From NCBI GenBank assembly GCA_945947155.1, contig CAMEXM010000011.1, forward strand, positions 1-39,265: a stretch of 39,265 bases of DNA. The letters are read 5' to 3'. The notes beneath the pieces are model-generated. The model did not search any database, was not told the DNA's origin, and saw only the letters and a list, made by a program, of their open reading frames with translations. Shown here one piece after another: positions 6,136-38,343 of this stretch. The translations under genes and the position numbers were made by a program. Source of the DNA: Polynucleobacter meluiroseus. GTDB lineage: Bacteria > Pseudomonadota > Gammaproteobacteria > Burkholderiales > Burkholderiaceae. The number at the start of each line of letters is the position of its first letter. The stretch's first letter is position 1.

Positions 6136-6158
6136 TTACTCTGATTAGCTCAAACCCC

Positions 6159-8420: not shown

Positions 8421-9506
8421 TTAATTGACTGAGAGTTCCACGGTCAGTTTAGTGCCGGGAACAATAATGCCGCCCCGATTACCTGGCTCTACGGAACCCC
8501 ATCTAGCGGCAAAATAGTCGGGCAGTGGTTTCCCATCAAGCGGTGCTATCCATAGTCTTAATAAATGGCGCTGACGCTCCGGTTCGGGCCAATTTTCAAA
8601 ATCACTTCGTGAATGAAAAATCTGATGGTTGTGAATAATCTGAATATCACCTGGCTCAAAACTCATCGGCAGAATCAATTTACCTTCTGCAATAATTTCA
8701 TCCAACAAATTCATTACATCAATTTGTTTTTGGGTAAGTCGCGGGGCCTCTGGAAAATTAGTTTGAGCAGATTCAATATAGGGCCGAATATACACACACG
8801 ATAATTCGCCCTGATACCAACTAAAAATGGGCATATCAAACCAAGGGTTCAGGCCTGCAGGCACCTCACCACGGCGATCGGTGGGATAAGGCATAAAAAG
8901 CGCCTCTAGTAAATCTGGCCGTCTTCGAGCAATTTCATTGTATGCACTCATGGAACTCGCTAAATACGATTCGCCACCCTGCTTGGCCTTTTGCAGACAC
9001 AACAGCGCTACGAAATCGGCGGAGTCTGTATGAAATTCTAATTTTTTATTGGTCTGATAGAAGCGGGTTTTACTGTCAGCAATGTCGGCACCCTGATCTC
9101 GAACATGACCTAATAAGTGCCCCTTTGCGTTGTTGCTTCTCAAGCTACCTAAATGACAGCCCAGCCCAAGATAGATAACAGAAGCAAGTTTAATGCCGAG
9201 CTCTTGAACCGGGATTCCCCTCAGCAGTACAAAACCACGTCCCTCTAAGAGCTCTTTTGAGATATTGTTGATTAAAGTACAAATGGTTGGCAGTGGAAAG
9301 TCATCTTTCGTAATTTGCTCTAATGGCTTCTCCAAGCTTAGAAAATGGAGGGCTGCATGATGCAATTCGGCGAGCTGATTTTGAGTCCACTCTATTTTCC
9401 AAGATTGATCACTTTCCATTTCAGCCCCAGTCCAAATGCTGGAGCCACTAACTTGCATAGGAAAATCGTCAGGTATTTTAATTTCTCTATTGATATTATT
9501 AAGCAT
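8421..9506 (-). CDS. TauD/TfdA family Fe(II)/2-oxoglutarate-dependent dioxygenase
   Basis: 361 aa; HxD motif in LEFHTDSADF, distal IIHNHQIFHSRSDF and RHLLRLW region characteristic of the TauD superfamily. Confidence 0.8.
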   Translation of the reverse strand: MLNNINREIKIPDDFPMQVSGSSIWTGAEMESDQSWKIEWTQNQLAELHHAALHFLSLEKPLEQITKDDFPLPTICTLINNISKELLEGRGFVLLRGIPVQELGIKLASVIYLGLGCHLGSLRSNNAKGHLLGHVRDQGADIADSKTRFYQTNKKLEFHTDSADFVALLCLQKAKQGGESYLASSMSAYNEIARRRPDLLEALFMPYPTDRRGEVPAGLNPWFDMPIFSWYQGELSCVYIRPYIESAQTNFPEAPRLTQKQIDVMNLLDEIIAEGKLILPMSFEPGDIQIIHNHQIFHSRSDFENWPEPERQRHLLRLWIAPLDGKPLPDYFAARWGSVEPGNRGGIIVPGTKLTVELSVN

Positions 9507-10636: not shown

Positions 10637-10788
10637 CTTATGGCTCCAGTAAGAACATTGAAAAGGTGAGTTCACATTAGCAAGCGTATGAGGGAGATGC
10701 AATACGAGTAATCCCCTAATTACCTTATTTTTTATCGCAATACAGTCTCTTTACCGGAACCCGCAGGCTGAGGCGCGCCGCTGCCAGC

Positions 10789-11625: not shown

Positions 11626-12375
11626 CTATAGCAGGGCCAAGACACCCAAATTAAATGCCGCGTTCACAATTAGTAAATACAGGCAAAACTTTTTGATCGC
11701 ACTGGCAGATAATTCCCGCCGCTCTAGCAAGATCTTAGCCAATAACATGCCAAAAAAATAGGCCGGCAGAGCAAATAATAACCAAGGTAACCAAGCGATA
11801 CCGCCTCCCATTAAGCTAGCGGCAACAATCGCTAATAAACAAACGCCGGAAACAAATTGGGAAAGCAAGGCCCTTGAGCGCTCAAACTCCAGGCCGCTGG
11901 CGTTTAAATAAAGCGCCACAGGAGGGCCGCCGATGCCACATGAACCCAAGAGCAGACCGGATAAAGCGCCAATAAGATAGTCCCTAAATGCGGAAAGCGT
12001 GATCGCCAAATTGACTCGTATTAGCAAAAAAATAGAAAATGCAATCACTACAATTCCAGTTGTAATTTTGAGCGCAGTCAGTGGAACAACCCCGCCCAAA
12101 AAAATACCAAAGGGCAACAGTATTGCAGCTAAGACCCACATTCGATATAGGCTTGGAATGTCCTCTTTGTTAACCTTCCACTGGGTAAAGAGCCACATGC
12201 CGCCAAGCAGCTCGGCGGACATCACAATGGGAAGGAAAAAAGGAACTGGGAAAAACCACATCAGCAGTGGCGACATGATGAGTGCCCCGCCAAACCCGCT
12301 GAGACGACGCACGAGCCCGCCTAGAGCAGCCGAAAACAACAGGATACTTGCTGTAATCCAGCTAAATTCGATCAC
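11626..12375 (-). CDS. TSUP family anion transporter (TauE/SafE sulfite exporter-like)
   Basis: 249 aa, polytopic; duplicated TSUP motifs (VRRLSGFGGALIMSPLL; GALSGLLLGSCGIGGPPVALYLNASG). ATGA overlap with upstream ABC ATPase. Confidence 0.83.
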   Translation of the reverse strand: MIEFSWITASILLFSAALGGLVRRLSGFGGALIMSPLLMWFFPVPFFLPIVMSAELLGGMWLFTQWKVNKEDIPSLYRMWVLAAILLPFGIFLGGVVPLTALKITTGIVVIAFSIFLLIRVNLAITLSAFRDYLIGALSGLLLGSCGIGGPPVALYLNASGLEFERSRALLSQFVSGVCLLAIVAASLMGGGIAWLPWLLFALPAYFFGMLLAKILLERRELSASAIKKFCLYLLIVNAAFNLGVLALL

Positions 12376-13148
12376 ATAGTCACACTATCGTCGTGCTCTC
12401 CAGAAATAAGATCACGAATTTGCTTTCGGATGACTAAATAATCTGGCGAATCTTCAATCATTTTTCGAGGCTTAGGTACTCGGATAACGCTTTTGACACG
12501 GCCCGGACGGCGCGTCATCACAACAATCACATCCGATAAATTAATTGCCTCTTCAATGCTATGCGTTACCAAAACAACGGTTTTACTTTCCTCATCCAGG
12601 ATTCGTATCATCTCGGATTGCATCATTGATCTATTTTGCGCATCCAGCGCTGCAAATGGCTCATCCATTAGCAATACCGTGGGATCTACTGCTAAGGCCC
12701 TTGCAATCGAAACGCGTTGCCGCATCCCTCCAGAGAGTTGATGTGGGTAATGCTCAACGAATTGACTTAAGCCAACCAAACTAGCGAAGTGGTCAACGAT
12801 GCGTTTTATTTCAGCGCTGGCCATGCGTTTAATCTTGAGGCCAAATGCAATGTTTTCATAAACGGTAAGCCAAGGAAATAAGGCATAGTCCTGAAAAACC
12901 ATCGCACGATCCGCGCCAGGAGCCGTCACGCGCTGGCCTGCACACTCGATATAACCCGCCGTAGGGACTTCAAACCCAGCAATTAAATTTAACAGGGTTG
13001 TTTTGCCACAGCCACTATGGCCAAGGATGGAGTAAAACTCATTCTTATTCACCTCCAAAGAAACATCATCAAGGGCAAGTACTTCTTGCCCTTTTGAATT
13101 CAGGGATGGGTAAATTTTCTTTACTTTTTCTACTTTGAGTGCAAGCAT
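12372..13148 (-). CDS. ABC transporter ATP-binding protein (nitrate/sulfonate/taurine type)
   Basis: Walker A GHSGCGKTT, LSGGMRQRVSIARAL, LLMDEPFAALD; VVMTRRPGRV typical of SsuB/TauB/NrtD-like ATPases. Confidence 0.9.
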   Translation of the reverse strand: MLALKVEKVKKIYPSLNSKGQEVLALDDVSLEVNKNEFYSILGHSGCGKTTLLNLIAGFEVPTAGYIECAGQRVTAPGADRAMVFQDYALFPWLTVYENIAFGLKIKRMASAEIKRIVDHFASLVGLSQFVEHYPHQLSGGMRQRVSIARALAVDPTVLLMDEPFAALDAQNRSMMQSEMIRILDEESKTVVLVTHSIEEAINLSDVIVVMTRRPGRVKSVIRVPKPRKMIEDSPDYLVIRKQIRDLISGEHDDSVTM

Positions 13149-13161
13149 TTTCTTATTGTAT

Positions 13162-13935
13162 TTATGAGTTTAAGGATCTAGCCCAAGGCATCAGGGTCTT
13201 CGCACTGTAGCGAATAATGCGATCGAGGCAAAGGCCAATGACACCGATCGCCAACATGCCGGTTAAGATGAAATCGGTGCGCAAGACGGTTCGGGCGTCA
13301 TTGATAAGAAAGCCAAGCCCAGAATTTGCGCCCACCAGCTCTGCTGCAACCAAAGCCATCCAGCCAACTCCCAATCCAATCCGAATACCGGTCGTAATCT
13401 GCGGAAGAGCCGCTCTCAGGTTCACCCGGGTAATCACACTCCAATTGCCCGCTCCTAAACAGCGTGCAGCACGAATTAAGCTAGGCTCCACATTCTTAAC
13501 AGCATCAATCGTATTTAAGAGAATGGGGAAAAATATGCCCAAAAAGATAATGAACTGATTTTGTACATTACCTACCCCAAACCACAAAATACTCAATGGA
13601 ATCCAAGCAATTGGCGGGATCGGGCGCAGGATTTCAATAATGGGATCCACTTGTTCGTTGAGCCATTTAAAGCAGCCCATGGTGATTCCCAGTGGAATAG
13701 CGACGCTCGCATAACAAAAGGCGATAAATTCCCGCCTTAAGCTGTCGCGAACGTGCTTCCACAATTCTCCGGACGCACTTAACTCCATGGCCCCACTAAG
13801 CACACCTGAAGGCGGGGGTAATAGCGTTGCTTGGGTTTTATCAAGGACAAACCGGCTGGCAAACTCCCAGCCAGCCAGTAATATCAACAGCAAAACCAAG
13901 CGCCGGAACTGCAACAAAGAACGGAGGTAATTCAT
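13162..13935 (-). CDS. ABC transporter permease (SsuC/TauC-like)
   Basis: 257 aa; EAA-type segment AARCLGAGNWSVITRVNLRAALPQITTGIRIGLGVGWMALVAAELVGANSGLGFLI; overlaps SBP stop by 1 nt (TAATG). Confidence 0.9.
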   Translation of the reverse strand: MNYLRSLLQFRRLVLLLILLAGWEFASRFVLDKTQATLLPPPSGVLSGAMELSASGELWKHVRDSLRREFIAFCYASVAIPLGITMGCFKWLNEQVDPIIEILRPIPPIAWIPLSILWFGVGNVQNQFIIFLGIFFPILLNTIDAVKNVEPSLIRAARCLGAGNWSVITRVNLRAALPQITTGIRIGLGVGWMALVAAELVGANSGLGFLINDARTVLRTDFILTGMLAIGVIGLCLDRIIRYSAKTLMPWARSLNS

Positions 13936-15218
13936 TATTTTTTAAATGCCTTATTGTCGAATGACCAATCTTTGGTTAAGTCACCTTTTTCAGGGAATGG
14001 CTGCGGCTTAGTTGTATTCAATGGCGTTGCATACCTTGGATACGGTATTTTGTCCATTGGAGCGGACCAGTTAGCAGGTAGGAATGGTGGTAATTTTGGA
14101 ATTGCCCAACCTACTTTCGAGAAGGTATTGTCCATAAAGCGCGCGTCTACCGCAGCAATAAATGTGGATGCCGACGTTTTATTTTGAATCCGCTTATTGT
14201 CAAACAGCCATTCATAAATTGGCTCATTTGCACGGCCCCAGAACAATGGAATCGGATAAAGATACGTTGGCTTATCCAAGTTGTTGTACATCTTTATCTG
14301 CGCAAGAAGAATTTCAGGGGAGAAATTCTTCAAGTTTGGATCCTCTTGCATCGCTTTCACAGCAGCATCTGGATTTTTGCGAATCCAAAGAGTGGCCTCA
14401 ACAATAGCATCAGTAAATGCCTGCACTACGTCTGGTGCATTATCAATAACCTCTTGGCGGACGTAAAAAGATGAGCCGTAAATATTGTATGGATAGCTAT
14501 CATTAATAATGCGGGCATTCTTACGCTCTTTCACCATAATGGTTGGCGTTGGATCCCATGGAACAACCGCATCAATACCCTTAGGCATGGCCATTTGCTC
14601 GCCTGGAGGCATGTTCTTCAAAATAATATCTTTGCCGATGACAAGACCGTGGGCCTTGGCTGCCGCCTGAATATAAAACTCCGCAGAAGATCCGGTTACC
14701 AATCCAATCGTTGCCGGCTCTTTTCGATTTTTGAAATCATCAATGGTTTTAATTGGTGAATCCAATGGCACCAGCATAGCGTGCATCAAATTAACGTTGA
14801 TGATCGCTATGGTTTTAACCGGGACATTTTTATCAATTAATGTAGTGAAGGGGAAATTTCCACCATTACCAAATTGGAATCGACCAGAAATGATGACTTC
14901 ATTAATCGCTGGACCCGATGGAAAAGCCTGAAACTTCGCATCGATACCTCTTTTAGATAAAAGTCCTGTTTTATCCATTACTAAATTAATTGTATTTTGA
15001 CCCGACCATGGCGGCTGGAATGCAACCTGAATCGGCCACCAACCTTTTTCTTTCAACCATGCGATTGACTTGGGGGAAACTTTTTCGTATGCATTTTCAG
15101 GCCAACCGTAGTTGGTAAATTTAGTTGCATCTTGTGCAAAGGCCGGTAAAGATGCTCCTGAAAATGCGCCAAGTGCAGCAATCACTAAAACGCGTCGCTT
15201 AAAATTAAATTCTTGCAT
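13935..15218 (-). CDS. ABC transporter substrate-binding protein (SsuA/TauA/NrtA NMT1-like superfamily)
   Basis: 427 aa with signal peptide MQEFNFKRRVLVIAALGAFSGASLPAFAQ; first gene of the SBP-permease-ATPase-TSUP set; NMT1-like periplasmic fold sequence pattern. Confidence 0.8.
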   Translation of the reverse strand: MQEFNFKRRVLVIAALGAFSGASLPAFAQDATKFTNYGWPENAYEKVSPKSIAWLKEKGWWPIQVAFQPPWSGQNTINLVMDKTGLLSKRGIDAKFQAFPSGPAINEVIISGRFQFGNGGNFPFTTLIDKNVPVKTIAIINVNLMHAMLVPLDSPIKTIDDFKNRKEPATIGLVTGSSAEFYIQAAAKAHGLVIGKDIILKNMPPGEQMAMPKGIDAVVPWDPTPTIMVKERKNARIINDSYPYNIYGSSFYVRQEVIDNAPDVVQAFTDAIVEATLWIRKNPDAAVKAMQEDPNLKNFSPEILLAQIKMYNNLDKPTYLYPIPLFWGRANEPIYEWLFDNKRIQNKTSASTFIAAVDARFMDNTFSKVGWAIPKLPPFLPANWSAPMDKIPYPRYATPLNTTKPQPFPEKGDLTKDWSFDNKAFKK

Positions 15219-15332: not shown

Positions 15333-16796
15333 TTAAACCGAGATGGTTAACTCTACACCACCCCATTTTGTTCTAATCTTTTTATATTCTTTTTGCCGCG
15401 TTAAATACTTCAGTAATTCAGACGGCGGATTCAATTGAGACCCTTGTTTCAAGGCTTGTATCGTTCCATCCTGTAATCCCATTGCTAGATTTTCAGGATA
15501 AAACGCATGCAAACACAACTGCTCTCTGCTGATGCCCTTGCCCCATTTTTTTCTGAGGCCTGGTAATGCCGGAGCCACCTTATCGCCAGCCCTCACACTC
15601 GCATCATAATCTACGCCAGCGCGCTCCATAACAAGGGGCGACGGTGTGCCCGCAAGCCTGCCATAGTGCCCTTTTAGATATAGCTTTACCTCGTCTGGAA
15701 TCGTTTTATAGCGCTCACCCTGCACTACATTGAGGACGGCTTGGGTAACGATGTATTGTGCAAACGGACTGACTAGAATGGGGTAGCCGAGGTCTTTACG
15801 AACTTGCGCTGTTTCTTCTAGGATTTCTTGTTCGCGATGCGAGATGCCCAGGGTTTGCAATTGAGCACGAAGATTGGAGATCATGCCGCCAGGAATTTGA
15901 TGCTCATACAAGGCGGGGTCGTAATCCGCCTTCATCCCCCTAGATAAGCCATCGCGCGTACATACCCAGTCGAAATAGTCATCGACGTTTTGCAATGCAG
16001 CACGGTTCATATTGGGCGCCCGTCCTAATTTGTGGGCACTATCCAGCACATCGATTACGGAAGGCAAAGAGGCCCCATTAGCCAGGCAATCCGTTGCAAC
16101 ATACCCATAGGCAAATCCAGCCTTGATTGCTTCTTCATATACCAGTGGCGCCAAACCGGACTGGCAATGGGAATGCAGCTTGAGCGGAATCCCTTTTGCC
16201 GCTTTTACGATTGCCGGAAATAAAGTTTTTGCCCGTTCTGGCGTTAAAAGGCCGGTTGGGTCTTTGACTGAAATGTAATCGACTTTCATTTCAACCAGCT
16301 CTTTCGTTCGAGCCACAAAATAATCGTCATCATGCACTGGGCTGAGTGCATACGTCAGCATTGCATTCACTAACATGCCATTTTTCTTACCAACCTGCAC
16401 CGATGACAGGATGTTGCGATTGTCATTCAATGCATCGTAGACGGTTAACACACGCACGCCGGATTCAGCCAAAAGCTCAATATTGAGGGCAACCACATCG
16501 TCCGGAAAGAGCTCAAACGTATAAATACTCTGGCCGCGCGTCAGTGCGTCCGTTGGCGTAGCAAAGCGATTACTCAGAAAGGCCATTCGCTTCCAAGGAT
16601 CCTCCCTTAAAAAACGAACCATGACATCAAACACAGCGCCACCTAAGATATTGATATAGGCATACCCCGCTTTATCCGTATCCTCCATGGCTGGGTACAT
16701 TTGCGCCGTTGTCATGCGCGTTGACCACAGGCATTGATGCGCATCCCTGAGTGTGACGTCAATCAATTGAAATGGCTTGCCTTTGCTGGCGCTCAT
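15333..16796 (-). CDS. Biotin-dependent carboxyltransferase, pyruvate carboxylase B / oxaloacetate decarboxylase alpha-type
   Basis: 487 aa; DVTLRDAHQCLWSTRMTT start, ISVKDPTGLLTPERAK, LHSHCQSGLAPLVYEEAIKAG, PGGMISNLRAQL and PYC_OADA C-terminal region; ATGA overlap with the biotin carrier gene. Confidence 0.88.
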   Translation of the reverse strand: MSASKGKPFQLIDVTLRDAHQCLWSTRMTTAQMYPAMEDTDKAGYAYINILGGAVFDVMVRFLREDPWKRMAFLSNRFATPTDALTRGQSIYTFELFPDDVVALNIELLAESGVRVLTVYDALNDNRNILSSVQVGKKNGMLVNAMLTYALSPVHDDDYFVARTKELVEMKVDYISVKDPTGLLTPERAKTLFPAIVKAAKGIPLKLHSHCQSGLAPLVYEEAIKAGFAYGYVATDCLANGASLPSVIDVLDSAHKLGRAPNMNRAALQNVDDYFDWVCTRDGLSRGMKADYDPALYEHQIPGGMISNLRAQLQTLGISHREQEILEETAQVRKDLGYPILVSPFAQYIVTQAVLNVVQGERYKTIPDEVKLYLKGHYGRLAGTPSPLVMERAGVDYDASVRAGDKVAPALPGLRKKWGKGISREQLCLHAFYPENLAMGLQDGTIQALKQGSQLNPPSELLKYLTRQKEYKKIRTKWGGVELTISV

Positions 16797-17467
16797 TTCA
16801 GCTCCAAGATCATGAGGGGTTGTCCAGACTCAATGGAGGCACCATCATCAACCAAAATACTCACCACTCGACCAACGCAGCCTGCTTCAATGGTATTGAG
16901 CAACTTCATTACCTCGACAATGCAAAGTGCAGTATCTGCCTGCACTTCATCGCCGACCTCCACAAAAGGGGGCAAGCTTGGATTTGGTCTTCTAAAAAAA
17001 GTACCCACCATTGGGCTCGTTATGAATCGTTGATTAGGTGCAAGCGCTAACCCCGCATTCGACGGTCTATTTACTTCTAAAATAGGTGCAGGGCTAACGG
17101 GGGGGGCAGGTATTGTCGCAATCCGCTCAATCGGCTGGCCTTGCGGTGCAGCAGCTACGGCTGGAATCGAGCCATTTCCAACGTTAATTTCGATCTCGAA
17201 GGCATCCGTTTTATAAGCAAAGGTATTAAAGTTGCCAGAGTCTTTGATTAATGAAATGAGCTCTTTCACCTCTTTCATACCAAAAGACGTGTTTTGGTCT
17301 GCCAAAGCAGTTGCGGTACGGGTATTTTTTGAAGGGCCCTTCACGGCAGTTTTGCCCCCCGAGGCAGGCCTGGAGGGCTTCGGCTTAGAAACCGTTGCTT
17401 GCGTTTTTTGTTTCGACTGACTGGGTGGTGCTGCAGCGACACTCTTTTTTAGTTTTTTTGTAGGCAC
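16793..17467 (-). CDS. Biotin carboxyl carrier protein (AccB-like)
   Basis: Lys/Ala/Ser/Pro-rich N-terminus, then TSPMVGTFFRRPNPSLPPFVEVGDEVQADTALCIVEVMKLLNTIEAGCVG with VMK biotinylation site. Confidence 0.9.
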   Translation of the reverse strand: MPTKKLKKSVAAAPPSQSKQKTQATVSKPKPSRPASGGKTAVKGPSKNTRTATALADQNTSFGMKEVKELISLIKDSGNFNTFAYKTDAFEIEINVGNGSIPAVAAAPQGQPIERIATIPAPPVSPAPILEVNRPSNAGLALAPNQRFITSPMVGTFFRRPNPSLPPFVEVGDEVQADTALCIVEVMKLLNTIEAGCVGRVVSILVDDGASIESGQPLMILELK

Positions 17468-17471
17468 TTTG

Positions 17472-17540
17472 CGTATCGTTTGATATATATATAATGAAAT
17501 GTAACGTATCGTCAGATGAAATGATTTAAGGGTATATACC
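17472..17540. promoter_or_regulatory. Candidate divergent promoter/operator region between biotin carrier gene and IclR gene
   Basis: Direct repeats CGTATCGT at 17472 and 17505 (33 bp apart) and perfect palindrome GGTATATACC at 17531-17540 between divergent genes. Confidence 0.45.
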
Positions 17541-17585
17541 TAATTAAGCGGCCTCACAATACTTTAATATCGTAAACATCACTCT

Positions 17586-18389
17586 ATGACTAATTTACAA
17601 GCAGCCGCAGCAGATATTGACGCCAAAGCGAGCATGGCCGAAAAGGTGCTTTTGATCCTTGAGATGGTGTCGCATTCTGAAATTCCCCTGACGCTTGAAA
17701 ATGTATCCACTGGTCTAGGGCTTGCAAAGCCAACTGCATTCCGACTTTTAAACACCTTAAATACGCTGGGATTTATTGAGCGCGATTTTAGCGGTCGACG
17801 CTTTCAGCCGGGGGTTCGATTGCGCTCGATTGGGACCAGCATGCTATTTTCCGACCCAATTCGTGCTGAGCGAATAGCGGCAATGAAATTATTAGTTGAT
17901 CAAATCGGGGAAACGTGCAATTTTAATATTCTGGATGGCAATGAGGTTGTCTACATCGATCGTATTGAAACGAATGCACCCATTCGCCTTCATATCAGCG
18001 CTGGAATGCGTGTACCACTGCATTGCACTGCAAGCGGCAAGTTATTTTTATCGCAAATGAGTCCGGCGCAAATTGAGCGCACCCTGGGTACGGGTCCATT
18101 TGAAAAATTTACTAGCAAAACGCTGTTGAACTTAAAAGAACTACTCCCCAGCTTAACGAAAATTAAAAACCAAGGTTACGCAATTGATCAATGCGAATAC
18201 CTTGATGGCTCCATTTGCATTGCCATTCCGGTACTAGATAGTAAAAATAAAATGTTCGCAGCAATTGCGGCGCACGGCCCATCATCTCGGGTCTCGGTTA
18301 AAACCGTAAAAACATTTATACCCCACTTAGAACAAGCTGCTTTATCGATCCGAAAGAGCATGTCTGATACCCCTTCTCAACCTGATTAA
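17586..18389 (+). CDS. IclR family transcriptional regulator
   Basis: 267 aa; wHTH LTLENVSTGLGLAKPTAFRLLNTLNTLGFIERD; effector domain LHISAGMRVPLHCTASGKLFL. Confidence 0.9.
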   Translation: MTNLQAAAADIDAKASMAEKVLLILEMVSHSEIPLTLENVSTGLGLAKPTAFRLLNTLNTLGFIERDFSGRRFQPGVRLRSIGTSMLFSDPIRAERIAAMKLLVDQIGETCNFNILDGNEVVYIDRIETNAPIRLHISAGMRVPLHCTASGKLFLSQMSPAQIERTLGTGPFEKFTSKTLLNLKELLPSLTKIKNQGYAIDQCEYLDGSICIAIPVLDSKNKMFAAIAAHGPSSRVSVKTVKTFIPHLEQAALSIRKSMSDTPSQPD

Positions 18390-18406
18390 TCCCATTTGGA
18401 GTTTTC

Positions 18407-19246
18407 ATGACAAATTCAAGCCCCGTAATTATTACTGTAGCGATTACCGGCGCAATCCCTCGGAAAAAAGACTGTCCAGGCCTACCAGTCACGGTCTCCG
18501 AACAAATCGAAGAGACGCATAAAGCCTATGAAGCAGGCGCAGCCTTAGTCCACTTGCATGTGCGAAAGCCAGATGAGAGCCCGAGCTCCGATCCCGATCA
18601 GTTTGCAAAAGTCCAAGAGGGCATAAAAAAACATTGCCCGGATATGATTATTCAATTTTCTACCGGTGGCAGAGGTCAAGATCAAGCATTGCGAGGCGCA
18701 ATGCTGTTTCATCGTCCTGATATGGCATCTTTAGCCACTGGATCGGTCAATTTTCCCAATGGCATTTATGAGAATCCGCCGACTTTTGTTGATGGGCTTG
18801 CGAATGAAATGAATAAGTACGATATCAAGCCAGAGATTGAAGTATTTGATATGGCGATGCTCTACAGTGCTGCAGACTTGATCAAAAGGGGGCTGCTTAA
18901 AGCGCCCGCTCATGTTCAGTTTGTGATGGGTGTGCCCAACGCCATGCCAGCAAAACGCAGTATCTTGGAATTTCTGGTGAGCGAGTTAAAAGAGATCATG
19001 CCAGATGCAACATGGACTGCGGCTGGAATTGCAAGGCACCAGCTTGCTGTCAATGAATGGGCGCTTGAAATGGGTGGCCATGCTCGTACCGGTCTGGAAG
19101 ATAATATTAAATATGACCAGACGCGTGTCGCAAAAGACAATGCGGAATTAGTCTCACGTGTTGCTGAGTTGGCTACTAAATACAATCGACCTGTTGCGAA
19201 CGCAACGCTAGCACGTGAAATCTTAGGCCTGAGAGCGGCTGGGTAG
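18407..19246 (+). CDS. BKACE family (DUF849) beta-keto acid cleavage enzyme
   Basis: 279 aa; VAITGAIPRKKDCPGLPVTVSEQIEETHKAYEAGAALVHLHVRKPDESPSSDP with Zn-binding HxH, PEIEVFDMAML, ALEMGGHARTGLEDNI typical of DUF849. Confidence 0.9.
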   Translation: MTNSSPVIITVAITGAIPRKKDCPGLPVTVSEQIEETHKAYEAGAALVHLHVRKPDESPSSDPDQFAKVQEGIKKHCPDMIIQFSTGGRGQDQALRGAMLFHRPDMASLATGSVNFPNGIYENPPTFVDGLANEMNKYDIKPEIEVFDMAMLYSAADLIKRGLLKAPAHVQFVMGVPNAMPAKRSILEFLVSELKEIMPDATWTAAGIARHQLAVNEWALEMGGHARTGLEDNIKYDQTRVAKDNAELVSRVAELATKYNRPVANATLAREILGLRAAG

Positions 19247-19252
19247 CCTCGA

Positions 19253-20857
19253 ATGCAAGACAATCAGTTTGACTATATTGTGGTTGGCGCTGGATCGTCG
19301 GGTTGCGTTCTAGCAAACCGCCTGTCAAAAGAGAATGTCAATTCGGTTTGCTTAATTGAGGCAGGGCCAAAAGATAGCTCGCCGTGGATTCACCTACCGA
19401 TTGGGTATGGGAAAACCATGTGGGATCCAAAGGTTAATTGGAAATTCGAAACAGAACCAGATCCTGGAATGAATCAGCGCAAGATTTACTGGCCCCGCGG
19501 AAAGTGCTTGGGTGGCTCGAGCTCCATTAATGGTTTGATTTTTATTCGCGGGCAAAAAGAGGACTATGACGGCTGGAAAGATCGTGGCAATACAGGCTGG
19601 GGCTGGGATGATGTCCTACCCTATTTTAAAAGGGCGGAAGGCAATGACCGCCTAGGCGAACCGCTCCATTCTAAAACTGGCCCCCTCAAGGCATCATCCA
19701 TTCCCAAAAAACACCCACTGGTAGAGTCATTCATAAAAAGTGCAGTCAACTTGGGCGTGCCAGAAACCGATGACTTTAATAACCTCACGCAAGAAGGCGT
19801 GGGCTACTACCAACTGAGCACCCATAAGGGCTTACGCTGTAGCACTGCAGTCGCCTACTTAAATCCGATCAAAAGTCGCAGTAACCTGACCATCTTGACG
19901 GATAGTCAGGTCATGCGCATTATCTTTGAAGGACGCCGTGCTGTTGCCATCGAATTAATGCGTCATGGTAAAAAACAAACGATTCGAGCGAATAAAGAAA
20001 TCATCCTAAGTGCTGGAGCCCTGCAATCGCCACAAATTTTGCAACTATCCGGAATTGGCCCAGCAGCACTCTTGCGCGAATTTAATATCCCCATCATTCA
20101 CGATCTTCCGGGCGTTGGCGAAAATCTACAGGACCACCTACAGTACCGTTTGATTTACGAGCTAAACCAACCAATATCAACCAATGTGCAGCTCTCATCG
20201 CTGTTTGGCAAAATAAAGATTGGTCTGGATTGGCTCCTATTTCGAGGCGGCCCACTTTCAATTGGAATTAATCAAGGCGGACTGTTCACTAAAGTGATGG
20301 ATTCATCGAGTACACCAGACATCCAATTCCATATGGCAACCTTATCGGCCGATATGGCAGGTGGAAATGTGCACCCCTTCCCTGGATTCACCATGTCCGT
20401 TTGTCAATTAAGGCCTGAGTCCAGGGGCCATGTGCGCATTCAATCAGCAGATCCTTTAGTGCCGCCGAAGATGGTTGCAAATTACCTCGCAACAGAACAC
20501 GATCGAAACACGAGCGTTGAGGCCGTTAAATTTGCGCGGAAAATTGCGCAGACCGAGCCGCTCAAATCGCTAATCACCAGGGAAATTAAGCCCAATAATC
20601 CGCAGAGCGATGCCGATCTATTGGAATTTTGCCGCAATAATGGTGCCACGATTTTTCACCCAACGGGTACATGCCAAATGGGCACAGACTCCGATCCAAT
20701 GGCCGTACTGGATTCTGAGTTGAGGGTGCGAGGCGTTACCGGATTGCGGGTAGTCGATTGCTCTGCAATGCCTACCTTACCATCGGGCAATACGAATTGG
20801 CCGGCCGTCATGATGGCTGAAAAAGCGGCAGACCTCATACTCAAGAAAAAAATATAA
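19253..20857 (+). CDS. GMC family flavin-dependent oxidoreductase (choline dehydrogenase-like)
   Basis: 534 aa; FAD motif DYIVVGAGSSGCVLANRLS, PRGKCLGGSSSINGLIFIRG, LSAGALQSPQILQLSGIGP, HPTGTCQMG, TNWPAVMMAEKAAD. Confidence 0.93.
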   Translation: MQDNQFDYIVVGAGSSGCVLANRLSKENVNSVCLIEAGPKDSSPWIHLPIGYGKTMWDPKVNWKFETEPDPGMNQRKIYWPRGKCLGGSSSINGLIFIRGQKEDYDGWKDRGNTGWGWDDVLPYFKRAEGNDRLGEPLHSKTGPLKASSIPKKHPLVESFIKSAVNLGVPETDDFNNLTQEGVGYYQLSTHKGLRCSTAVAYLNPIKSRSNLTILTDSQVMRIIFEGRRAVAIELMRHGKKQTIRANKEIILSAGALQSPQILQLSGIGPAALLREFNIPIIHDLPGVGENLQDHLQYRLIYELNQPISTNVQLSSLFGKIKIGLDWLLFRGGPLSIGINQGGLFTKVMDSSSTPDIQFHMATLSADMAGGNVHPFPGFTMSVCQLRPESRGHVRIQSADPLVPPKMVANYLATEHDRNTSVEAVKFARKIAQTEPLKSLITREIKPNNPQSDADLLEFCRNNGATIFHPTGTCQMGTDSDPMAVLDSELRVRGVTGLRVVDCSAMPTLPSGNTNWPAVMMAEKAADLILKKKI

Positions 20858-22203: not shown

Positions 22204-23748
22204 TTATTTAGATTCAACTAAGTCCAATAGCTTTAAGCGCTGTACCTTTCCTGATGGACCTCTAGGCAGATCATCCATAAACAGAATGAGCTTAGGCGTC
22301 CTGAGCTTACCTAGATTATCAAGGCAGAATTGAAGCATCTCCGATTCAGAGCAGGTCTGGCCCTCTTTTAGAATGATGCAGACCATAATGTCTTGACCGT
22401 AGTTTGCATCTGGTATTCCAACCGATGCTGCATCCAAAACTGCGGGGTGTTTCAAAACCACCTCATCAATTTCACGCGGCGCAATATTTTCACCGCCCTT
22501 AATAATCAATTCTTTCAGTCTGCCGGTAATGAAATAAAAACCATCGGAATCTCGCATACCCAAGTCACCTGTTTTCATCCAACCATCTGCATCAAATGCC
22601 TTCTTGGTTTCCGCTTCACCTTTGTAATATGCCTGCAATACGTTTTCACCTTTAAGGCAAATTTCCCCAGAAACCAGATCAGGTGCTGGATTTCCAGAAT
22701 CATCCACAATCTTTGCTGTGACTCCACAGGGAAGTCCGGGACTACCAAAGCGCCTACGCTCATCGTGTGGATTACAAAACACAATGGAGCAGGTTTCCGT
22801 CATGCCCATTGCTTCGATTACAGGCATTCCAAATAAAGCCTCAAACTCACGATGGTGCTCAGGTGGCAATGGGGCTGATGCTGAGCGGCCAAAACGAATA
22901 TGTTTAAGCTCGGCTATATCGGGCTTGCTGGCACCACTTTTTGCAGCATTAATTAAATACGCAATGATGGTGGGGACCATATTGATCCAGGTGCAGCGAT
23001 ATTGAATCGCTATTTTCCACCAGGTCGAGACCGAAAAATGATGGGGGGCCACAATCGATCCACCAGAAAAGAATGGCGTTATGGTTGAAATGACTTGGCC
23101 GTTGATATGGTAGATCGGGAGCGAGCTCAGGACAATATCCGCCGGAGTAAGCTGATGCCATTCGCCAATCGACTTGGCTGCATGCAATAAATTCCGATGC
23201 GTCAATATCACACCCTTTGGCGTGCCAGTAGTACCCGAGGTGTACATTAACAAAGCAGGATTATTTGGATCAATTTGCGGCAAGGGCAAGCGGGCCGATT
23301 GCAGAAAAGGTCCAGATTCAGAATCCGGATCTAATTCCACCAATGCAAAGACACGTTGGGTTTTTTTCAATGCCGCAAATAAGTTCTGCTTATTCTCTGG
23401 GGCATAAAACAATACCTCAATATCGCTATGGTCTAAAACCCAAGCCAGCTGATCTACTGGCGCCGACAGGTTCAGTGGTGTCACTACCCGACCGCAAACC
23501 ATCGTCGCAATAAAAACCGTTGTGGTCTGACGTCCATTGTGCATAAATATGCCCACATGGCCATTGGTGCTAATCTGGCGCTCCTTCAGCCAGCCCATAA
23601 AATGCTCAGCCTCTAAAGCCATCTGCCCATACGATAGTTTTTGAGCGGTCTCCGGAGCAAACAACAAGACATGATCGGGCTGTAGCTCGGCCCATTTAGC
23701 TAATACATGCGCAATGCTAGCGCCAGTGATATCCAATGTGTCCGCCAT
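22204..23748 (-). CDS. AMP-binding acyl-CoA synthetase (candidate sulfoacetate-CoA ligase, SauT-like)
   Basis: 514 aa; YTSGTTGTPKGVILTHRN, GMTETCS, GWMKTGDLGMRDSDGFYFITGRLKELIIKGGENIAPREID, PRGPSGKVQR. SauT-like role inferred from adjacent SauS-like gene. Confidence 0.8.
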   Translation of the reverse strand: MADTLDITGASIAHVLAKWAELQPDHVLLFAPETAQKLSYGQMALEAEHFMGWLKERQISTNGHVGIFMHNGRQTTTVFIATMVCGRVVTPLNLSAPVDQLAWVLDHSDIEVLFYAPENKQNLFAALKKTQRVFALVELDPDSESGPFLQSARLPLPQIDPNNPALLMYTSGTTGTPKGVILTHRNLLHAAKSIGEWHQLTPADIVLSSLPIYHINGQVISTITPFFSGGSIVAPHHFSVSTWWKIAIQYRCTWINMVPTIIAYLINAAKSGASKPDIAELKHIRFGRSASAPLPPEHHREFEALFGMPVIEAMGMTETCSIVFCNPHDERRRFGSPGLPCGVTAKIVDDSGNPAPDLVSGEICLKGENVLQAYYKGEAETKKAFDADGWMKTGDLGMRDSDGFYFITGRLKELIIKGGENIAPREIDEVVLKHPAVLDAASVGIPDANYGQDIMVCIILKEGQTCSESEMLQFCLDNLGKLRTPKLILFMDDLPRGPSGKVQRLKLLDLVESK

Positions 23749-23780: not shown

Positions 23781-25187
23781 TTAGGACTTAGGGTGCTGAC
23801 TAAAATAATTAGCCAGCAAGGCCTCTACCTCGGGCACTTTTTCAGCAATGGGCCGCACTACACGGGTAGTGTTGAGATAGTGGCGATAGTTCATGTTGTC
23901 GGAGAAGTTATTTTTACCCCACGTACCACAGCCCATCGACAAAGAAAATGGCAGCCCATTTTCAAAGCTACCGCCCGTAGCAATGGCATGCGCTTGATTC
24001 ACAATAACTCGAGCAACTGGCAGATCACGGGCTAAATCAGCAGCCCTCTCCTCCATGACTGATCCGCTGCTTGCCGTATGCAATCCAACGGAATGCCCGG
24101 CGCCCTGATAGGCATAAACCTGTGCAACCAGTTTCTTGGCTGCCTGAAAATTGGCTGCCCGCCAGACTGTCAAAATAGGGCTTAGCTTTTCGCCTGAAAA
24201 AGGCGCGCTTGGGCCAAATCCGGTCTCTTCAACCATAAAAAAGCGTGCAGTGCTGGCTTTGGGATGTTGCAATTTAGCGCGCTCCGCAATCACTGCAGGA
24301 GACTGCGCAGTCAGCTTGGAGGTCAATTTTCCACCGCTAAACATCACATCGTGAAGGCGTTGCTTATCATTGGCATCCAAAAGCACGCCACCAGCACGCT
24401 CTAACGCATCAATCGCAGAGTCGTAAACAGCATCAAGTAAAACAGCGCCATTTTCACTAGAACAGCTTGTGGCGTTATCAAACGTTTTCGATTGGGTAAT
24501 TTTTTGTGCAGCACTATCCAGATTGGCATTCTCGTCAATGATCGCAAGGACATTACCAGCACCCACCCCAAATGCAGGCGTTCCACTCGTGTATGCAGAA
24601 CGGATATTGGCTTGAGAGCCAGTAGCGACCACCAAGTCAGCTAATCGCATCAGCTCGTGCGTAGCGTCTTTTGTAATTGTATCGGGCAGCATTTGTACTA
24701 AATCACGCGGCGCTTTCAATAGGTCCAGCTGGGCATGTACAAATTCCAATAAACGAAAACACGTTGATTGCCCTTTGGGGGATGGGGCAACCACGACTGC
24801 ATTGCGGCACTTTAGTGCATTCAAAATTTTATTGATTGGCGTTGCGCCTGGATTGGTTGAGGGCGTAATGGCAGCCACCACCCCTACTGGCCTTGCGTAC
24901 TCCGTAATTCCAGTGGCGGGATCGTGAGAAACAATTCCAACTGTTTTGGCATTTTGCAAATCCCGAACCAAGCCCAGCGTTTTACGAAAATTCTTTTTAA
25001 ACTTATCCGCTGCATCACCAAGCCCCGTATCACGGACCGCCAACTCAGCTAACTCGGTATTTCTGCCTGGCTCAAGAATCGCCCAAGCCACGGCAGAAAC
25101 CACCAAATCCACTTGTTCCTGTGTATAAGACTCGTATTCTGCTTGTGCAACACGAGCACGCTTAATAATGCTTTCAACTTCTGACAT
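23781..25187 (-). CDS. Acylating aldehyde dehydrogenase, candidate sulfoacetaldehyde dehydrogenase (acylating, SauS-like)
   Basis: 468 aa; CoA-acylating ALDH pattern ITPSTNPGATPINKILNALKCRNAVVVAPSPKG, GVGAGNVLAIID, catalytic Cys in NATSCSSENGAV. Substrate assignment from context. Confidence 0.75.
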   Translation of the reverse strand: MSEVESIIKRARVAQAEYESYTQEQVDLVVSAVAWAILEPGRNTELAELAVRDTGLGDAADKFKKNFRKTLGLVRDLQNAKTVGIVSHDPATGITEYARPVGVVAAITPSTNPGATPINKILNALKCRNAVVVAPSPKGQSTCFRLLEFVHAQLDLLKAPRDLVQMLPDTITKDATHELMRLADLVVATGSQANIRSAYTSGTPAFGVGAGNVLAIIDENANLDSAAQKITQSKTFDNATSCSSENGAVLLDAVYDSAIDALERAGGVLLDANDKQRLHDVMFSGGKLTSKLTAQSPAVIAERAKLQHPKASTARFFMVEETGFGPSAPFSGEKLSPILTVWRAANFQAAKKLVAQVYAYQGAGHSVGLHTASSGSVMEERAADLARDLPVARVIVNQAHAIATGGSFENGLPFSLSMGCGTWGKNNFSDNMNYRHYLNTTRVVRPIAEKVPEVEALLANYFSQHPKS

Positions 25188-25228: not shown

Positions 25229-26212
25229 CTAATCAACCTTAATATTGGCTGACTTCACAACCTGTTTCCACTTAGCGATTTCTTTTTTAACAACGCCTGA
25301 TAATTGCGCAGGTGAATCGCCCACTGCTTCTGCGCCTTGGCCTAACAATTTCTCTTTTACCTCAGGCTGAGCAAGGACATTTACAGCTGCTTTATTAATC
25401 CGATCAATGATTGCCTGTGGCGTTTTGGCTGGCACAAACATCGCATACCAAGAATCCACCTCAAAACCCTTAAAGCCAGATTCAACCATGGTGGGTACAT
25501 CTGGGAATACTGCAGACCGCTTTACCGTTGAAACGGCAAGCGCCCTCAATTTACCCGCCTTCACAAATTGTGCAGCTGCGGGGATCGAAACCCAGAGCAA
25601 TGGAACCTGACCAGCCATGACATCCGTTACTGCAGGACCGCCGCCCCGGTAAGGAATGTGCGTCATATCGACTCCCGCATCACTCGCCATCATTGCGCCT
25701 GCTAAATGCCCTGGCGATCCATTTCCGACCGATGCATATGAAATGCTGCCTGGCTTTGCTTTAGCCATCTCAATGAGCTCTTTCACCGTCTTCGCAGGGA
25801 AATTAGGGTTCGCAACCAAGATTTGAGGCAAGGAGGCAACGGTCACTACTGAAGAAAAATCTTTTTCAGTATCAAACGGCAGTTTTGGGTAGATGGCGGG
25901 ATTAATTGTGTGCGAAGAGAGCGTAAATAGAACGGTATAGCCATCCGAGGGCGATTGCGCCGCCAATGCTGAGCCAATTGACCCGCCGGCGCCGCCGCGG
26001 TTATCAATGATGACTTGCTGCCCTAGCTCTTTTGCCAACGGTTCTTGCACTATCCGCGCAATGACATCCGTTCCGCCGCCTGGTGGATAAGGAACGATCA
26101 ACTTAATCGGCTTGGTTGGCCAAGACTGCGCGTGCGCCAGGCCCGCAATTGAAACTCCAGAGAGGCATACCAGCGCACCAGATAGCCATTTCTTCATTTT
26201 TAACTTAGTCAT
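25229..26212 (-). CDS. Bug/TctC family substrate-binding protein
   Basis: Start chosen at M12 of the 26245 ORF (MTKLKMKKWLSGALVCLSGVSIAGLAHAQ signal); SWPTKPIKLIVPYPPGGGTDVIARIVQ, IDNRGGAGGSIGSALAAQ. Confidence 0.88.
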   Translation of the reverse strand: MTKLKMKKWLSGALVCLSGVSIAGLAHAQSWPTKPIKLIVPYPPGGGTDVIARIVQEPLAKELGQQVIIDNRGGAGGSIGSALAAQSPSDGYTVLFTLSSHTINPAIYPKLPFDTEKDFSSVVTVASLPQILVANPNFPAKTVKELIEMAKAKPGSISYASVGNGSPGHLAGAMMASDAGVDMTHIPYRGGGPAVTDVMAGQVPLLWVSIPAAAQFVKAGKLRALAVSTVKRSAVFPDVPTMVESGFKGFEVDSWYAMFVPAKTPQAIIDRINKAAVNVLAQPEVKEKLLGQGAEAVGDSPAQLSGVVKKEIAKWKQVVKSANIKVD

Positions 26213-26273
26213 ATAAACCCCTAGGAAATTATTTTTTGTCTCCAAGTCAAACCATACCTTATTCAGCTATCCT

Positions 26274-26353: not shown

Positions 26354-26377
26354 ATATTGTTTTGTGAGATTAATCCC

Positions 26378-27178
26378 ATGTTAGACCAGGAAATCGCCGA
26401 AATACTGGATTTGCCCAAAAAGGATGCTTCCAGCGAAAACTCATCCATGCTCAAAGGGGTTGTCATTCTCGAGGCCCTAGCAGCACTCAGGCAGCCTGCT
26501 ACCTTGGCACAATTGATGCAAATCACGGGCATGCCAAAAGCCTCATTGCATCGCACGCTGGCAATTTTTGAAGAAGCCAGCCTAGTCGTGCGCGAACCGG
26601 GCGGAAAAGCATACGCTCCTGGCGAGCGCCTCTCGAAGTTGGCGCTGGAGACCTTGTGCCACGATAGCGTCTCTAGCGTCCGTCACTCGATATTGCGTAA
26701 ATTAGTTGCCGATCTAAAAGAAACCTGCAACCTAGCAGTGCTTCGGCAAGGCGAACTCTTTTACCTCGACCGAGTTGAGGCAAACTGGGCGCTACGACTG
26801 CACCTTCCCCCTGGCACCGTACTGCCACCCCATTGCAGCGCGAGCGGCAAGCTATTACTTGCCTATAAACCAATGGAAGAGAGAACGCGCTTATTAGACA
26901 ATCTTCCGCTTGAGCAATTTACCCACCGCACTATTACCGATCGTGACCTTCTTGAGTCTGAATTAGATCGTATTCTTAGCACGGAATATGCAGTCGATAA
27001 TGAAGAATACGTCTTAGGTGTCTCTTGTGTAGCCGTGCCAGTGAAAGATAAACATGGGGATGCTGTGGCGGCCATCGCCATTCATGCCGCTACTGCGCGC
27101 CTGCCCCTAAACCAAGCAATGGAATACATTCCGCAACTGCGTGAAGCGGCTACCCGCATTTCCAACACGCTTGGTTGA
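26378..27178 (+). CDS. IclR family transcriptional regulator
   Basis: wHTH ATLAQLMQITGMPKASLHRTLAIFEEASLV; effector domain LRLHLPPGTVLPPHCSASGKLLL. ATG 26378 preferred over TTG 26357 of the supplied ORF. Confidence 0.9.
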   Translation: MLDQEIAEILDLPKKDASSENSSMLKGVVILEALAALRQPATLAQLMQITGMPKASLHRTLAIFEEASLVVREPGGKAYAPGERLSKLALETLCHDSVSSVRHSILRKLVADLKETCNLAVLRQGELFYLDRVEANWALRLHLPPGTVLPPHCSASGKLLLAYKPMEERTRLLDNLPLEQFTHRTITDRDLLESELDRILSTEYAVDNEEYVLGVSCVAVPVKDKHGDAVAAIAIHAATARLPLNQAMEYIPQLREAATRISNTLG

Positions 27179-27194: not shown

Positions 27195-28097
27195 ATGCTC
27201 GAAAAATACCCACACCTCAACTTATTAATTAAGGAATCACAGGGCCAAAAAAGGCTGGGGGTCGTTTTTCCATTGAATCAGCCGTCACTCGAAACAGTGG
27301 CACAACTGCAAAAGTACGAACTATGCACTCCCGTCTTAATAGGGCCAAAACTGGAAATCGAGGCGCTTGCAGCACGTGTGTCACTCACGCTGGATGGCAT
27401 TGAGATTATGGATACCCCCAATGACCCAATCGCAGCAGCGAAAACAGCCGTTACCCTCGCGAAGTCAGGCAACGTGTCTGCGCTGATGAAGGGCTCTCTC
27501 CATACGGAGGATTTAATGGGGCCGGTGGTTGGTAAGGATGGTCTAAGGACAAACCGCAGAACCAGCCATATTTTTTTATTCGAGCTCCCCAGCTATCACA
27601 AGCTCCTAGGCATCAGCGATTGCGTAGTCAATATCGCTCCGTCTATTGAGCATAAAAAAGATATTTTGCTTAATAGCCTTGAGGCACTTTTCAAACTCGG
27701 GATAACGAAACCAAAAGTAGCCATCGTTGCCGCGACCGAAGTGGTTAATCCTGCTATGCAAGCAACGCTGGATGCCAAAATGTTAGTTGATCTTCAGCAG
27801 GACAATGCATTCTTTCCAGGCGCCCTCATCGAAGGCCCCTTTGGATTTGATAATGCTATTTCTGCGAGTTCTGCGGCAACCAAAGGAATTCAGTCTGCGG
27901 TTTCCGGCGATCCCGATCTGCTTCTGGTGCCTGATTTAGGGGCTGGAAATATTCTGTATAAATCACTTGTTTATATGGCGGGAGCGGAGTGTGCTGGCGT
28001 CATCCTCGGCACCGCAGTACCCATTATTTTGACGTCACGGTCAGACTCTGTTTTTTCTCGAGTGGCCTCCACCGCATTGGCAATGCGCCTAGCTTAA
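27195..28097 (+). CDS. Phosphate acyltransferase (phosphate acetyl/butyryltransferase family)
   Basis: 300 aa; SALMKGSLHTEDLMGPVVGKDGLRTNRRTSHIFLFELPSYHKLLGISDCVVNIAP, LLVPDLGAGNILYKSLVYMAGAECAGVILGTAVPIILTSRSDS typical of PTA/PTB fold. Confidence 0.88.
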   Translation: MLEKYPHLNLLIKESQGQKRLGVVFPLNQPSLETVAQLQKYELCTPVLIGPKLEIEALAARVSLTLDGIEIMDTPNDPIAAAKTAVTLAKSGNVSALMKGSLHTEDLMGPVVGKDGLRTNRRTSHIFLFELPSYHKLLGISDCVVNIAPSIEHKKDILLNSLEALFKLGITKPKVAIVAATEVVNPAMQATLDAKMLVDLQQDNAFFPGALIEGPFGFDNAISASSAATKGIQSAVSGDPDLLLVPDLGAGNILYKSLVYMAGAECAGVILGTAVPIILTSRSDSVFSRVASTALAMRLA

Positions 28098-31022: not shown

Positions 31023-31712
31023 ATGAATCAAACCATGAATCCCAAAAATGAAACCGCGGATCACAAGAAGCAACTGGCGCTTGTCATCGATCTTAATGTC
31101 TGTGTTGGTTGCCATGCTTGCGTCACCTCTTGCAAGGAATGGAATACCTCAGGCTCTGCTGGGCCGCTAAGTGATCTTAATGCGTATGCAGCAAATCCCA
31201 GCGGTACTTTCTTTAATCGGGTGCAGACCTACGAGGCTGGAATTTTTCCAAACACGCAAACCGTTCATTTTCCAAAATCGTGCCTGCACTGCGAAGAACC
31301 CCCTTGTGTTCCAGTCTGTCCAACTGGGGCAAGCTATAAACGTGAAGAAGATGGCATTGTTTTGGTGGATTACGACAAGTGCATCGGTTGTAGTTACTGT
31401 TCATGGGCTTGCCCATACGGCGCCAGGGAGCTGGATCAAGAGCGCCAAGTAATGACTAAATGCACCCTCTGCGTAGATCGCATCTACAGCGAAACATTAC
31501 CCGAATCCGAGCGCAAGCCTGCTTGCGTATTAGCATGCCCAACGAGTGCACGGATTTTTGGAGACGTTCATGATCCGAAGTCCGATGCCAGCATAGCCAT
31601 TCAAGAACGCTCTGGCTATGCACTGATGCCTGAATGGGAAACCCAGCCAGCAAACCATTATTTACCGCGCTCCATTATGGAAACAATTGAAGCCGCAAGG
31701 AAAGACAGCTAA
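31023..31712 (+). CDS. soeB: 4Fe-4S ferredoxin subunit, SoeB-like
   Basis: 229 aa; four Cys clusters: CVGCHACVTSCKEW, CLHCEEPPCVPVCPTGAS, CIGCSYCSWACPYGAR, CTLCVDRI/CVLACPTSAR. Confidence 0.82.
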   Translation: MNQTMNPKNETADHKKQLALVIDLNVCVGCHACVTSCKEWNTSGSAGPLSDLNAYAANPSGTFFNRVQTYEAGIFPNTQTVHFPKSCLHCEEPPCVPVCPTGASYKREEDGIVLVDYDKCIGCSYCSWACPYGARELDQERQVMTKCTLCVDRIYSETLPESERKPACVLACPTSARIFGDVHDPKSDASIAIQERSGYALMPEWETQPANHYLPRSIMETIEAARKDS

Positions 31713-38322: not shown

Positions 38323-38343
38323 CTAAACGATGATGTTGACCCC

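Follow-up and report, generated by a model that had tools for sequence, protein, structure and literature searches.

A carboxylase and beta-keto acid cleavage gene set linked to SauS and Xsc in Polynucleobacter, and a possible route from a sulfonated methyl ketone to sulfoacetyl-CoA

Gene content of the island and its link to SauS and Xsc

Water and soil contain large amounts of carbon and sulfur in the form of organosulfonates, whose known breakdown routes start from taurine, isethionate, sulfoacetate, sulfolactate, cysteate or 2,3-dihydroxypropane-1-sulfonate. Another point of entry is suggested by a stretch of 39,265 nucleotides from the freshwater bacterium Polynucleobacter meluiroseus (hereafter the window; contig CAMEXM010000011.1, or C11, of the 1.87-Mb assembly GCA_945947155.1, completeness 93%). 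Two divergent operons meet there. The minus-strand operon encodes, in this order, a biotin carboxyl carrier protein (BCCP), a carboxyltransferase (CT), an SsuA-type binding protein, a permease and an ATPase, which together make a sulfonate-type ABC transporter, and a TauE-like exporter of 249 aa; the BCCP and CT genes overlap by 4 bases. The plus-strand operon encodes an IclR regulator, a beta-keto acid cleavage enzyme (BKACE), a GMC alcohol dehydrogenase and a SulP transporter, with gaps of 17 bases between IclR and BKACE and of 6 bases between BKACE and GMC. Beyond SulP lie an acyl-CoA ligase and the sulfoacetaldehyde dehydrogenase SauS, then a second IclR gene, Pta and a SoeABC-like complex. 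A sequence-only reading of positions 15,333 to 20,857 had described divergent units around one IclR regulator, and the five open reading frames it named (carrier, CT, IclR, BKACE and GMC) are all intact and belong to the families it gave, as called with NCBIfam models and their curated bit-score cut-offs (Table 1).

CT homologues were gathered from 80 genome contigs, and the co-occurrence proposed in that reading held up for the carboxylase, CT being nested among genomes that encode SauS and Xsc. In the genus (186 genomes), CT occurs in 31 genomes, SauS in 42 and Xsc in 41; SauS and Xsc are both present in all 18 good-quality CT-positive genomes versus 12 of the 126 CT-negative ones. A family-level sample of 300 genomes has SauS in 15 of 15 CT-positive members and in 83 overall. 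Among CT-positive genomes of Alpha-, Beta- and Gammaproteobacteria, SauS exceeds its curated cut-off in 39 of 40 and Xsc in 38 of 40, and neither does so in any of 14 control genomes. The corresponding Fisher p values (2e-15 for the genus, 2e-9 for the family) ignore phylogeny and are descriptive only, since relatives are not independent, and more weight belongs to the occurrence in three classes. On a SauS tree the CT-linked sequences are scattered, with seven label changes, at least five of which are forced by well-supported branches; this count of 5 to 7 comes from a single tree in which some branches are long. The coupling of CT with SauS seems thus to have been made or lost repeatedly, which would be hard to explain if the two shared no function.

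The order ABC transporter / CT–BCCP / IclR–BKACE–GMC / ligase–SauS–TctC is kept in most Polynucleobacter loci, and the SsuA-type gene lies directly downstream of CT in nearly all of them and in several other betaproteobacterial loci. In two Burkholderiaceae of other genera (L115 and L117), the BCCP, biotin carboxylase (BC), CT, ABC, TauE, short-chain dehydrogenase/reductase (SDR) and SauS genes run in one direction with BKACE divergent, and a separate second SauS lies elsewhere in the genome; genomes G025 and G034 each have a second SauS, the one inside the CT cluster. The gammaproteobacterial loci L053 and L067 show the order CT–BKACE–SauS, with no acyl-CoA ligase recognised among the displayed neighbours (roughly 5 to 10 kb in either direction). 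A Roseovarius locus (L212) reads BC–CT–SauS–TauE with BKACE–BCCP divergent, and Acidocella (L210–L211) holds the full set, Pta and Xsc included. An SDR gene, often with an amidase and a TAXI-TRAP transporter, accompanies the carboxylase in Alphaproteobacteria and adjoins it in many other taxa, where TauE homologues also recur beside CT (one confirmed by Pfam PF01925). The earlier proposal that the two halves of the island belong to one sulfoacetyl-CoA route is well grounded, because the carboxylase–BKACE module is conserved, together with TauE, SauS and Xsc, across three classes of proteobacteria. As judged from these sequences, the module is very probably tied in function to SauS/Xsc sulfonate catabolism.

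Several loci carry further features. In the carboxylase cluster of L115, an extra biotin synthase gene (5503-6510) separates BKACE from the IclR regulator. In L212, a gene matching TIGR00366 below its cut-off (9719-11089) follows SauS and TauE; we take this family to be short-chain fatty acid transporter-like, and its product might move acetoacetate. In L251 (genome G365), the ABC, CT, GMC, SauS and ligase genes are split into short frames next to a whole BKACE, by decay or by indel errors. On a Sphingobium yanoikuyae plasmid (L255, 2019-7476), a BKACE-family gene, a Tm-1-like gene, a carrier, BC, CT and a HAD phosphatase form one run. This BKACE-family gene is annotated as 3-keto-5-aminohexanoate cleavage protein and is 32% identical to the BKACE of the window, so that a carboxylase and a BKACE-family enzyme are paired in another setting as well, possibly in a methyl-ketone (acetophenone) route ending in BKACE cleavage.

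Carboxyltransferase, BKACE and GMC dehydrogenase

The CT of the window aligns to structure 5ks8 with an E value of 1e-78. It stays below the equivalog cut-offs of pyruvate carboxylase and OadA (TIGR01108, 363 versus 756.5; PRK12999, 198 versus 965) and just passes only the broad PRK09282 domain model. It shares the fold and metal site of pyruvate carboxylase subunit B, oxaloacetate decarboxylase alpha and transcarboxylase 5S: the metal ligands D18, K178, H208 and H210 are kept in 90 of 90 aligned sequences (D18 in the 89 of 89 that cover it). Arg606 of the Lactococcus lactis pyruvate carboxylase contacts pyruvate, Thr867 lies between biotin and pyruvate, and Ser870 contacts biotin (PMC9581989). 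The arginine is retained as R87 in all 90 sequences, whereas Ser343 and Ala346 occupy the Thr867 and Ser870 positions in the window CT and in all 90 relatives. GGAT is likewise replaced by GGAV and RGQNxxGY by RGQSxxTF (with Tyr changed to Phe) throughout the family, none of these substitutions being found in the three pyruvate/oxaloacetate CTs used for comparison. On a tree, the subfamily falls outside the PycB/OadA/5S clade formed by these three enzymes (clade support 100/100). Since the metal site and the arginine are kept and the other positions are changed, we read this protein as a functional carboxyltransferase whose pocket has been reshaped but would still bind an anion. Plain pyruvate carboxylase was put low as a function because of the family-wide residue changes.

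A dedicated AccC-like BC gene adjoins CT in the more distant taxa; of the 40 non-Polynucleobacter CT loci that span 12 kb or more, 31 contain one. In the genome of the window, AccC is located elsewhere and is interrupted by a contig end. A transcarboxylase working without BC was put low as well, a BC gene adjoining CT in most relatives.

The HpeCBA complex is an established carboxylase of the phosphorylated methyl ketones derived from acetovanillone and 4-hydroxyacetophenone (PMC9618137), and the characterised HpeCBA/XccBCA are a chemical precedent for methyl-ketone carboxylation by such an assembly. As in HpeCBA/XccBCA/AcvCDE (PMC9618137), the proposed chemistry turns a methyl ketone into a beta-keto acid; carrier, BC and CT occur together in most relatives, while the window has no local BC gene. 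Compared with that kind by description, the CT subfamily is placed outside the clade of pyruvate/oxaloacetate enzymes. The substrates of HpeCBA are phosphorylated acetophenones, and a phosphatase and further cleavage enzymes act after it, whereas here there is no kinase or phosphatase, the context is that of sulfonates, the anion-binding arginine is conserved and BKACE is the cleaving enzyme.

The BKACE of the window retains the motifs VHLHVR, STGG and GGHARTGLEDN in an alignment to Kce (2y7d), which we take to form the metal site and catalytic machinery. Enzymes of this family convert a beta-keto acid and acetyl-CoA into R-CO-CoA and acetoacetate. Copies in unlike contexts (CT-linked, TRAP-linked and from Roseovarius) all exceed the cut-off of the same 3-oxoadipate model. 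The genome holds a second BKACE, 74% identical to that of the window, near TctC genes (G000:C31:6993-7814, L250) and beside an enzyme of the thiamine diphosphate (ThDP) family that is 27% identical to Xsc, a layout found again in genome G382 (L252). A second, distant DUF849 protein (27–31% identity) accompanies the carboxylase in L022, L030, L053, L065 and L078-L080.

The surroundings of BKACE and GMC vary within the genus. In G432 and G363, whose BKACE is 96–97% identical to that of the window, a DctPQM transporter takes the place of ABC–CT–BCCP–IclR and runs co-directionally into BKACE–GMC–SulP; G449 has the order DctPQM–BKACE–GMC–SulP too. G346 shows IclR–BKACE–GMC–TauE with a TRAP transporter and without CT, and G349 shows DctM–GMC–SulP with BKACE absent. 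Since these TRAP-linked, CT-less loci keep them, GMC can apparently work without the carboxylase, as can BKACE to a smaller extent. The sequence-only reading had named independence of the BKACE, GMC and biotin genes from the SauS/soe genes as a finding that would speak against it. The carboxylase is tied to SauS and Xsc; GMC and BKACE also occur without CT.

A possible route and its alternatives

In the proposed pathway, the carrier and CT (15333-17467) would form a biotin-dependent carboxylase with a BC that would be the housekeeping AccC in this genome and the dedicated AccC-like subunit in most other taxa. This enzyme would add CO2 to the methyl group of a small anionic sulfonated methyl ketone, most likely sulfoacetone, which would either enter through the neighbouring sulfonate ABC transporter or arise intracellularly from the corresponding alcohol. 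Carboxylation would give a beta-keto acid (in the case of sulfoacetone, 4-sulfoacetoacetate), from which BKACE, with acetyl-CoA, would yield sulfoacetyl-CoA and acetoacetate; R is most simply sulfomethyl because SauS is next in line. SauS would then reduce sulfoacetyl-CoA to sulfoacetaldehyde, Xsc would convert it into sulfite and acetyl phosphate, and Pta would turn the latter into acetyl-CoA, with SoeABC oxidising and TauE exporting the sulfite. Acetoacetate should be usable, because the genome encodes 3-oxoacid CoA-transferase A and B, through which it would re-enter metabolism. We put the probability that a sulfonated methyl ketone is carboxylated to provide the BKACE substrate, and thereby sulfoacetyl-CoA, at about 0.6. 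The identification of the ketone as sulfoacetone in particular is tentative, at a little under even odds, and GMC seems unlikely to be the enzyme that makes it.

Two known types of pathway come close. In carnitine catabolism, the substrate of the 3-dehydrocarnitine BKACE is a C4 beta-keto acid whose C4 bears a charged group, and the product is an acyl-CoA; this group is a quaternary ammonium there and would be a sulfonate here, and the carnitine route has no carboxylase. The sauRST genes of Cupriavidus necator serve sulfoacetate catabolism. SauCD and SauS of Bilophila do so too (PMC12890257). Such systems share with the island SauS, an acyl-CoA ligase, an IclR regulator, Pta and Xsc, to which the island would add a second entry to sulfoacetyl-CoA that bypasses sulfoacetate-CoA ligase. 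The enzyme kind and the pathway kind are each known separately, and their combination was not found described: the association of carboxylase, BKACE and SauS did not turn up in the searchable literature, from which most subscription journals are excluded, nor did BKACE with sulfoacetate in the open-licence literature. The chance that aerobic Alpha-, Beta- and Gammaproteobacteria have here an undescribed and widespread pathway, made of a dedicated biotin-dependent carboxylase of sulfoacetone (or a related sulfo-ketone) and a BKACE cleaving 4-sulfoacetoacetate, with no sulfoacetate-CoA ligase, appears slightly smaller than that of its absence.

Several observations weigh against the carboxylation route. 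The Polynucleobacter islands contain no biotin carboxylase, and the BKACE model (NF053568) is named for 3-oxoadipate. Among the non-Polynucleobacter CT loci of at least 12 kb, a BKACE (at least 50% identity) is within reach in only 28 of 40 and SauS in only 12 of 40. BKACE occurs without CT in 7 of the 12 good-quality CT-negative, SauS-positive Polynucleobacter genomes, and a TRAP transporter adjoins it in four of these seven (G346, G432, G363 and G449). Finally, no mention of sulfoacetone was found in the open-licence literature, and we know of no natural source of this compound.

The first step is where another explanation is slightly favoured, namely that GMC is an IseJ-type isethionate dehydrogenase giving sulfoacetaldehyde directly, outside the carboxylation line. 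GMC persists beside a TRAP transporter in the CT-less relatives G432, G363 and G449, and without BKACE in G349; in Acidocella, a GMC of 52% identity adjoins Xsc while an SDR adjoins the carboxylase. Published isethionate loci combine the TRAP transporter iseKLM with iseJ (PMC4334477), and IseJ, a flavin-dependent dehydrogenase, delivers its product to Xsc (PMC6453916). The CT-less relatives resemble this arrangement of a TRAP transporter and a flavin dehydrogenase (PMC4334477, PMC6453916), instead of which the window has an ABC transporter and a carboxylase. The likeness to IseJ is one of gene order, and GMC lies directly 3' of BKACE in most Polynucleobacter islands, so that a shared role is conceivable. 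The placement of GMC at the head of the route, as first proposed, is nevertheless not borne out, since GMC is kept without the carboxylase, next to a TRAP transporter as in the published isethionate loci.

The TRAP-linked loci also bear on a second explanation, in which GMC would oxidise an imported beta-hydroxy acid (e.g. 3-hydroxy-4-sulfobutanoate) for BKACE, as in carnitine breakdown, the carboxylase being employed otherwise, for instance in recapturing spontaneously decarboxylated ketone. Close relatives in which the TRAP transporter replaces ABC–CT–BCCP–IclR do keep BKACE without CT. However, no genes of the set are better conserved in other taxa than CT, BC and BCCP, a CT query finds SauS/Xsc genomes, and the ABC transporter travels with CT; this explanation appears improbable. 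It is still harder to see CT as an ordinary anaplerotic pyruvate carboxylase or oxaloacetate decarboxylase subunit beside a BKACE cleaving 3-oxoadipate. The best family models of CT (PycB/OadA) and the 3-oxoadipate equivalog matched by BKACE would fit, and the surroundings of the Acidocella cluster include a PEP-carboxylase-like protein (c18; named by eye); the Thr, Ser and Tyr positions of the compared pyruvate/oxaloacetate enzymes are, however, changed family-wide in a separate clade, and the strict link with SauS and Xsc would be left unexplained. Mere clustering of acid- and sulfonate-utilisation genes could be suspected from the TctC transporters, the variable gene content and the partial islands of the genus, but the linkage recurs within operons, in separate SauS lineages and in three classes, and CT is nested in SauS and Xsc at the genome level, which makes chance adjacency the least probable of these explanations.

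If the carboxylation route is correct, a further class of substrates would become accessible to sulfonate breakdown, the carboxylase subfamily that annotations now call pyruvate carboxylase subunit B would have a function, and one BKACE subgroup would have a natural role. The route would also imply a natural pool of a C3 sulfonate (sulfoacetone or 2-hydroxypropane-1-sulfonate), of which no measurement is known to us. The route is directly testable, its substrates being small and makeable and cultured Polynucleobacter and Roseovarius strains being at hand.

Other features of the window

Neither a biotin carboxylase gene nor xsc is present within the window. The Xsc of the genome scores 1066 bits (TIGR03457, cut-off 676.4) and is most probably located some 2 kb beyond the window end in the same island, as in the relatives G290 and L209, since the final 40 bases of the window reappear, with one mismatch, as the opening 40 bases of contig C18, and a mutL-like frame spans the join. 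A near-palindrome, TCGTCAGATGA, lies between the divergent operons. An operator common to both IclR genes was sought and none was seen, the conserved near-palindrome being confined to this first intergenic stretch.

Table 1. Features of the P. meluiroseus window and the basis of their assignment
Feature	Coordinates	Strand	Basis
TauD/gamma-butyrobetaine-dioxygenase-like protein, island flank	8421..9506	-	weak NCBIfam matches
TauE-like transporter, probable sulfite exporter, last gene of carboxylase operon	11626..12375	-	similarity and position; no NCBIfam family
ABC transporter ATPase, SaoA/nitrate/taurine type	12372..13148	-	NCBIfam
ABC permease, SaoP/TauC type	13162..13935	-	NCBIfam
ABC substrate-binding protein, SsuA family, under SsuA cut-off	13935..15218	-	NCBIfam
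CT, PycB/OadA/5S fold, distinct SPFAQ subfamily	15333..16796	-	PRK09282, 406 bits (cut-off 402)
AccB-like biotin carrier, biotin Lys in EVMKLL	16793..17467	-	BCCP TIGR00531, 119 bits (cut-off 115.2)
TCGTCAGATGA near-palindrome, possible IclR operator	17509..17519	.	block conserved in 15 related loci
IclR-family regulator, BhcR/PcaR-like	17586..18389	+	NCBIfam
BKACE (DUF849)	18407..19246	+	NF053568, 451 bits (cut-off 350)
GMC flavin alcohol dehydrogenase	19253..20857	+	PRK02106, 614 bits (cut-off 605)
SulP-family transporter, 427 aa	20915..22198	+	SulP model of 565 positions, match ends at 420
AMP-forming acyl-CoA ligase, SauT-like by position	22204..23748	-	NCBIfam
SauS, acylating sulfoacetaldehyde dehydrogenase	23781..25187	-	NF047625, 738 bits (cut-off 600)
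TctC-type solute-binding protein	25229..26245	-	named by eye; no NCBIfam family
Second IclR regulator, SauR-like by position	26357..27178	+	NCBIfam
Phosphate acetyl/butyryltransferase (Pta)	27195..28097	+	NCBIfam
SoeA-type sulfite dehydrogenase molybdopterin subunit	28128..31004	+	only general DMSO-reductase-family matches
SoeB-type iron-sulfur subunit	31023..31712	+	NCBIfam
SoeC-type membrane subunit, by position	31712..32647	+	no NCBIfam family

Between the sulfite dehydrogenase block and xsc (window 37909-39264 and G000:C18:1-1987, L110) lie genes for methylaspartate mutase S, a MutL-like protein and mutase E; this stretch has a low GC content and comes with a GntR regulator and a muconate-cycloisomerase-like protein. 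At the other end of the window, the prfB frame (5233-6135) begins at model position 57, which fits the programmed frameshift known from release factor 2.

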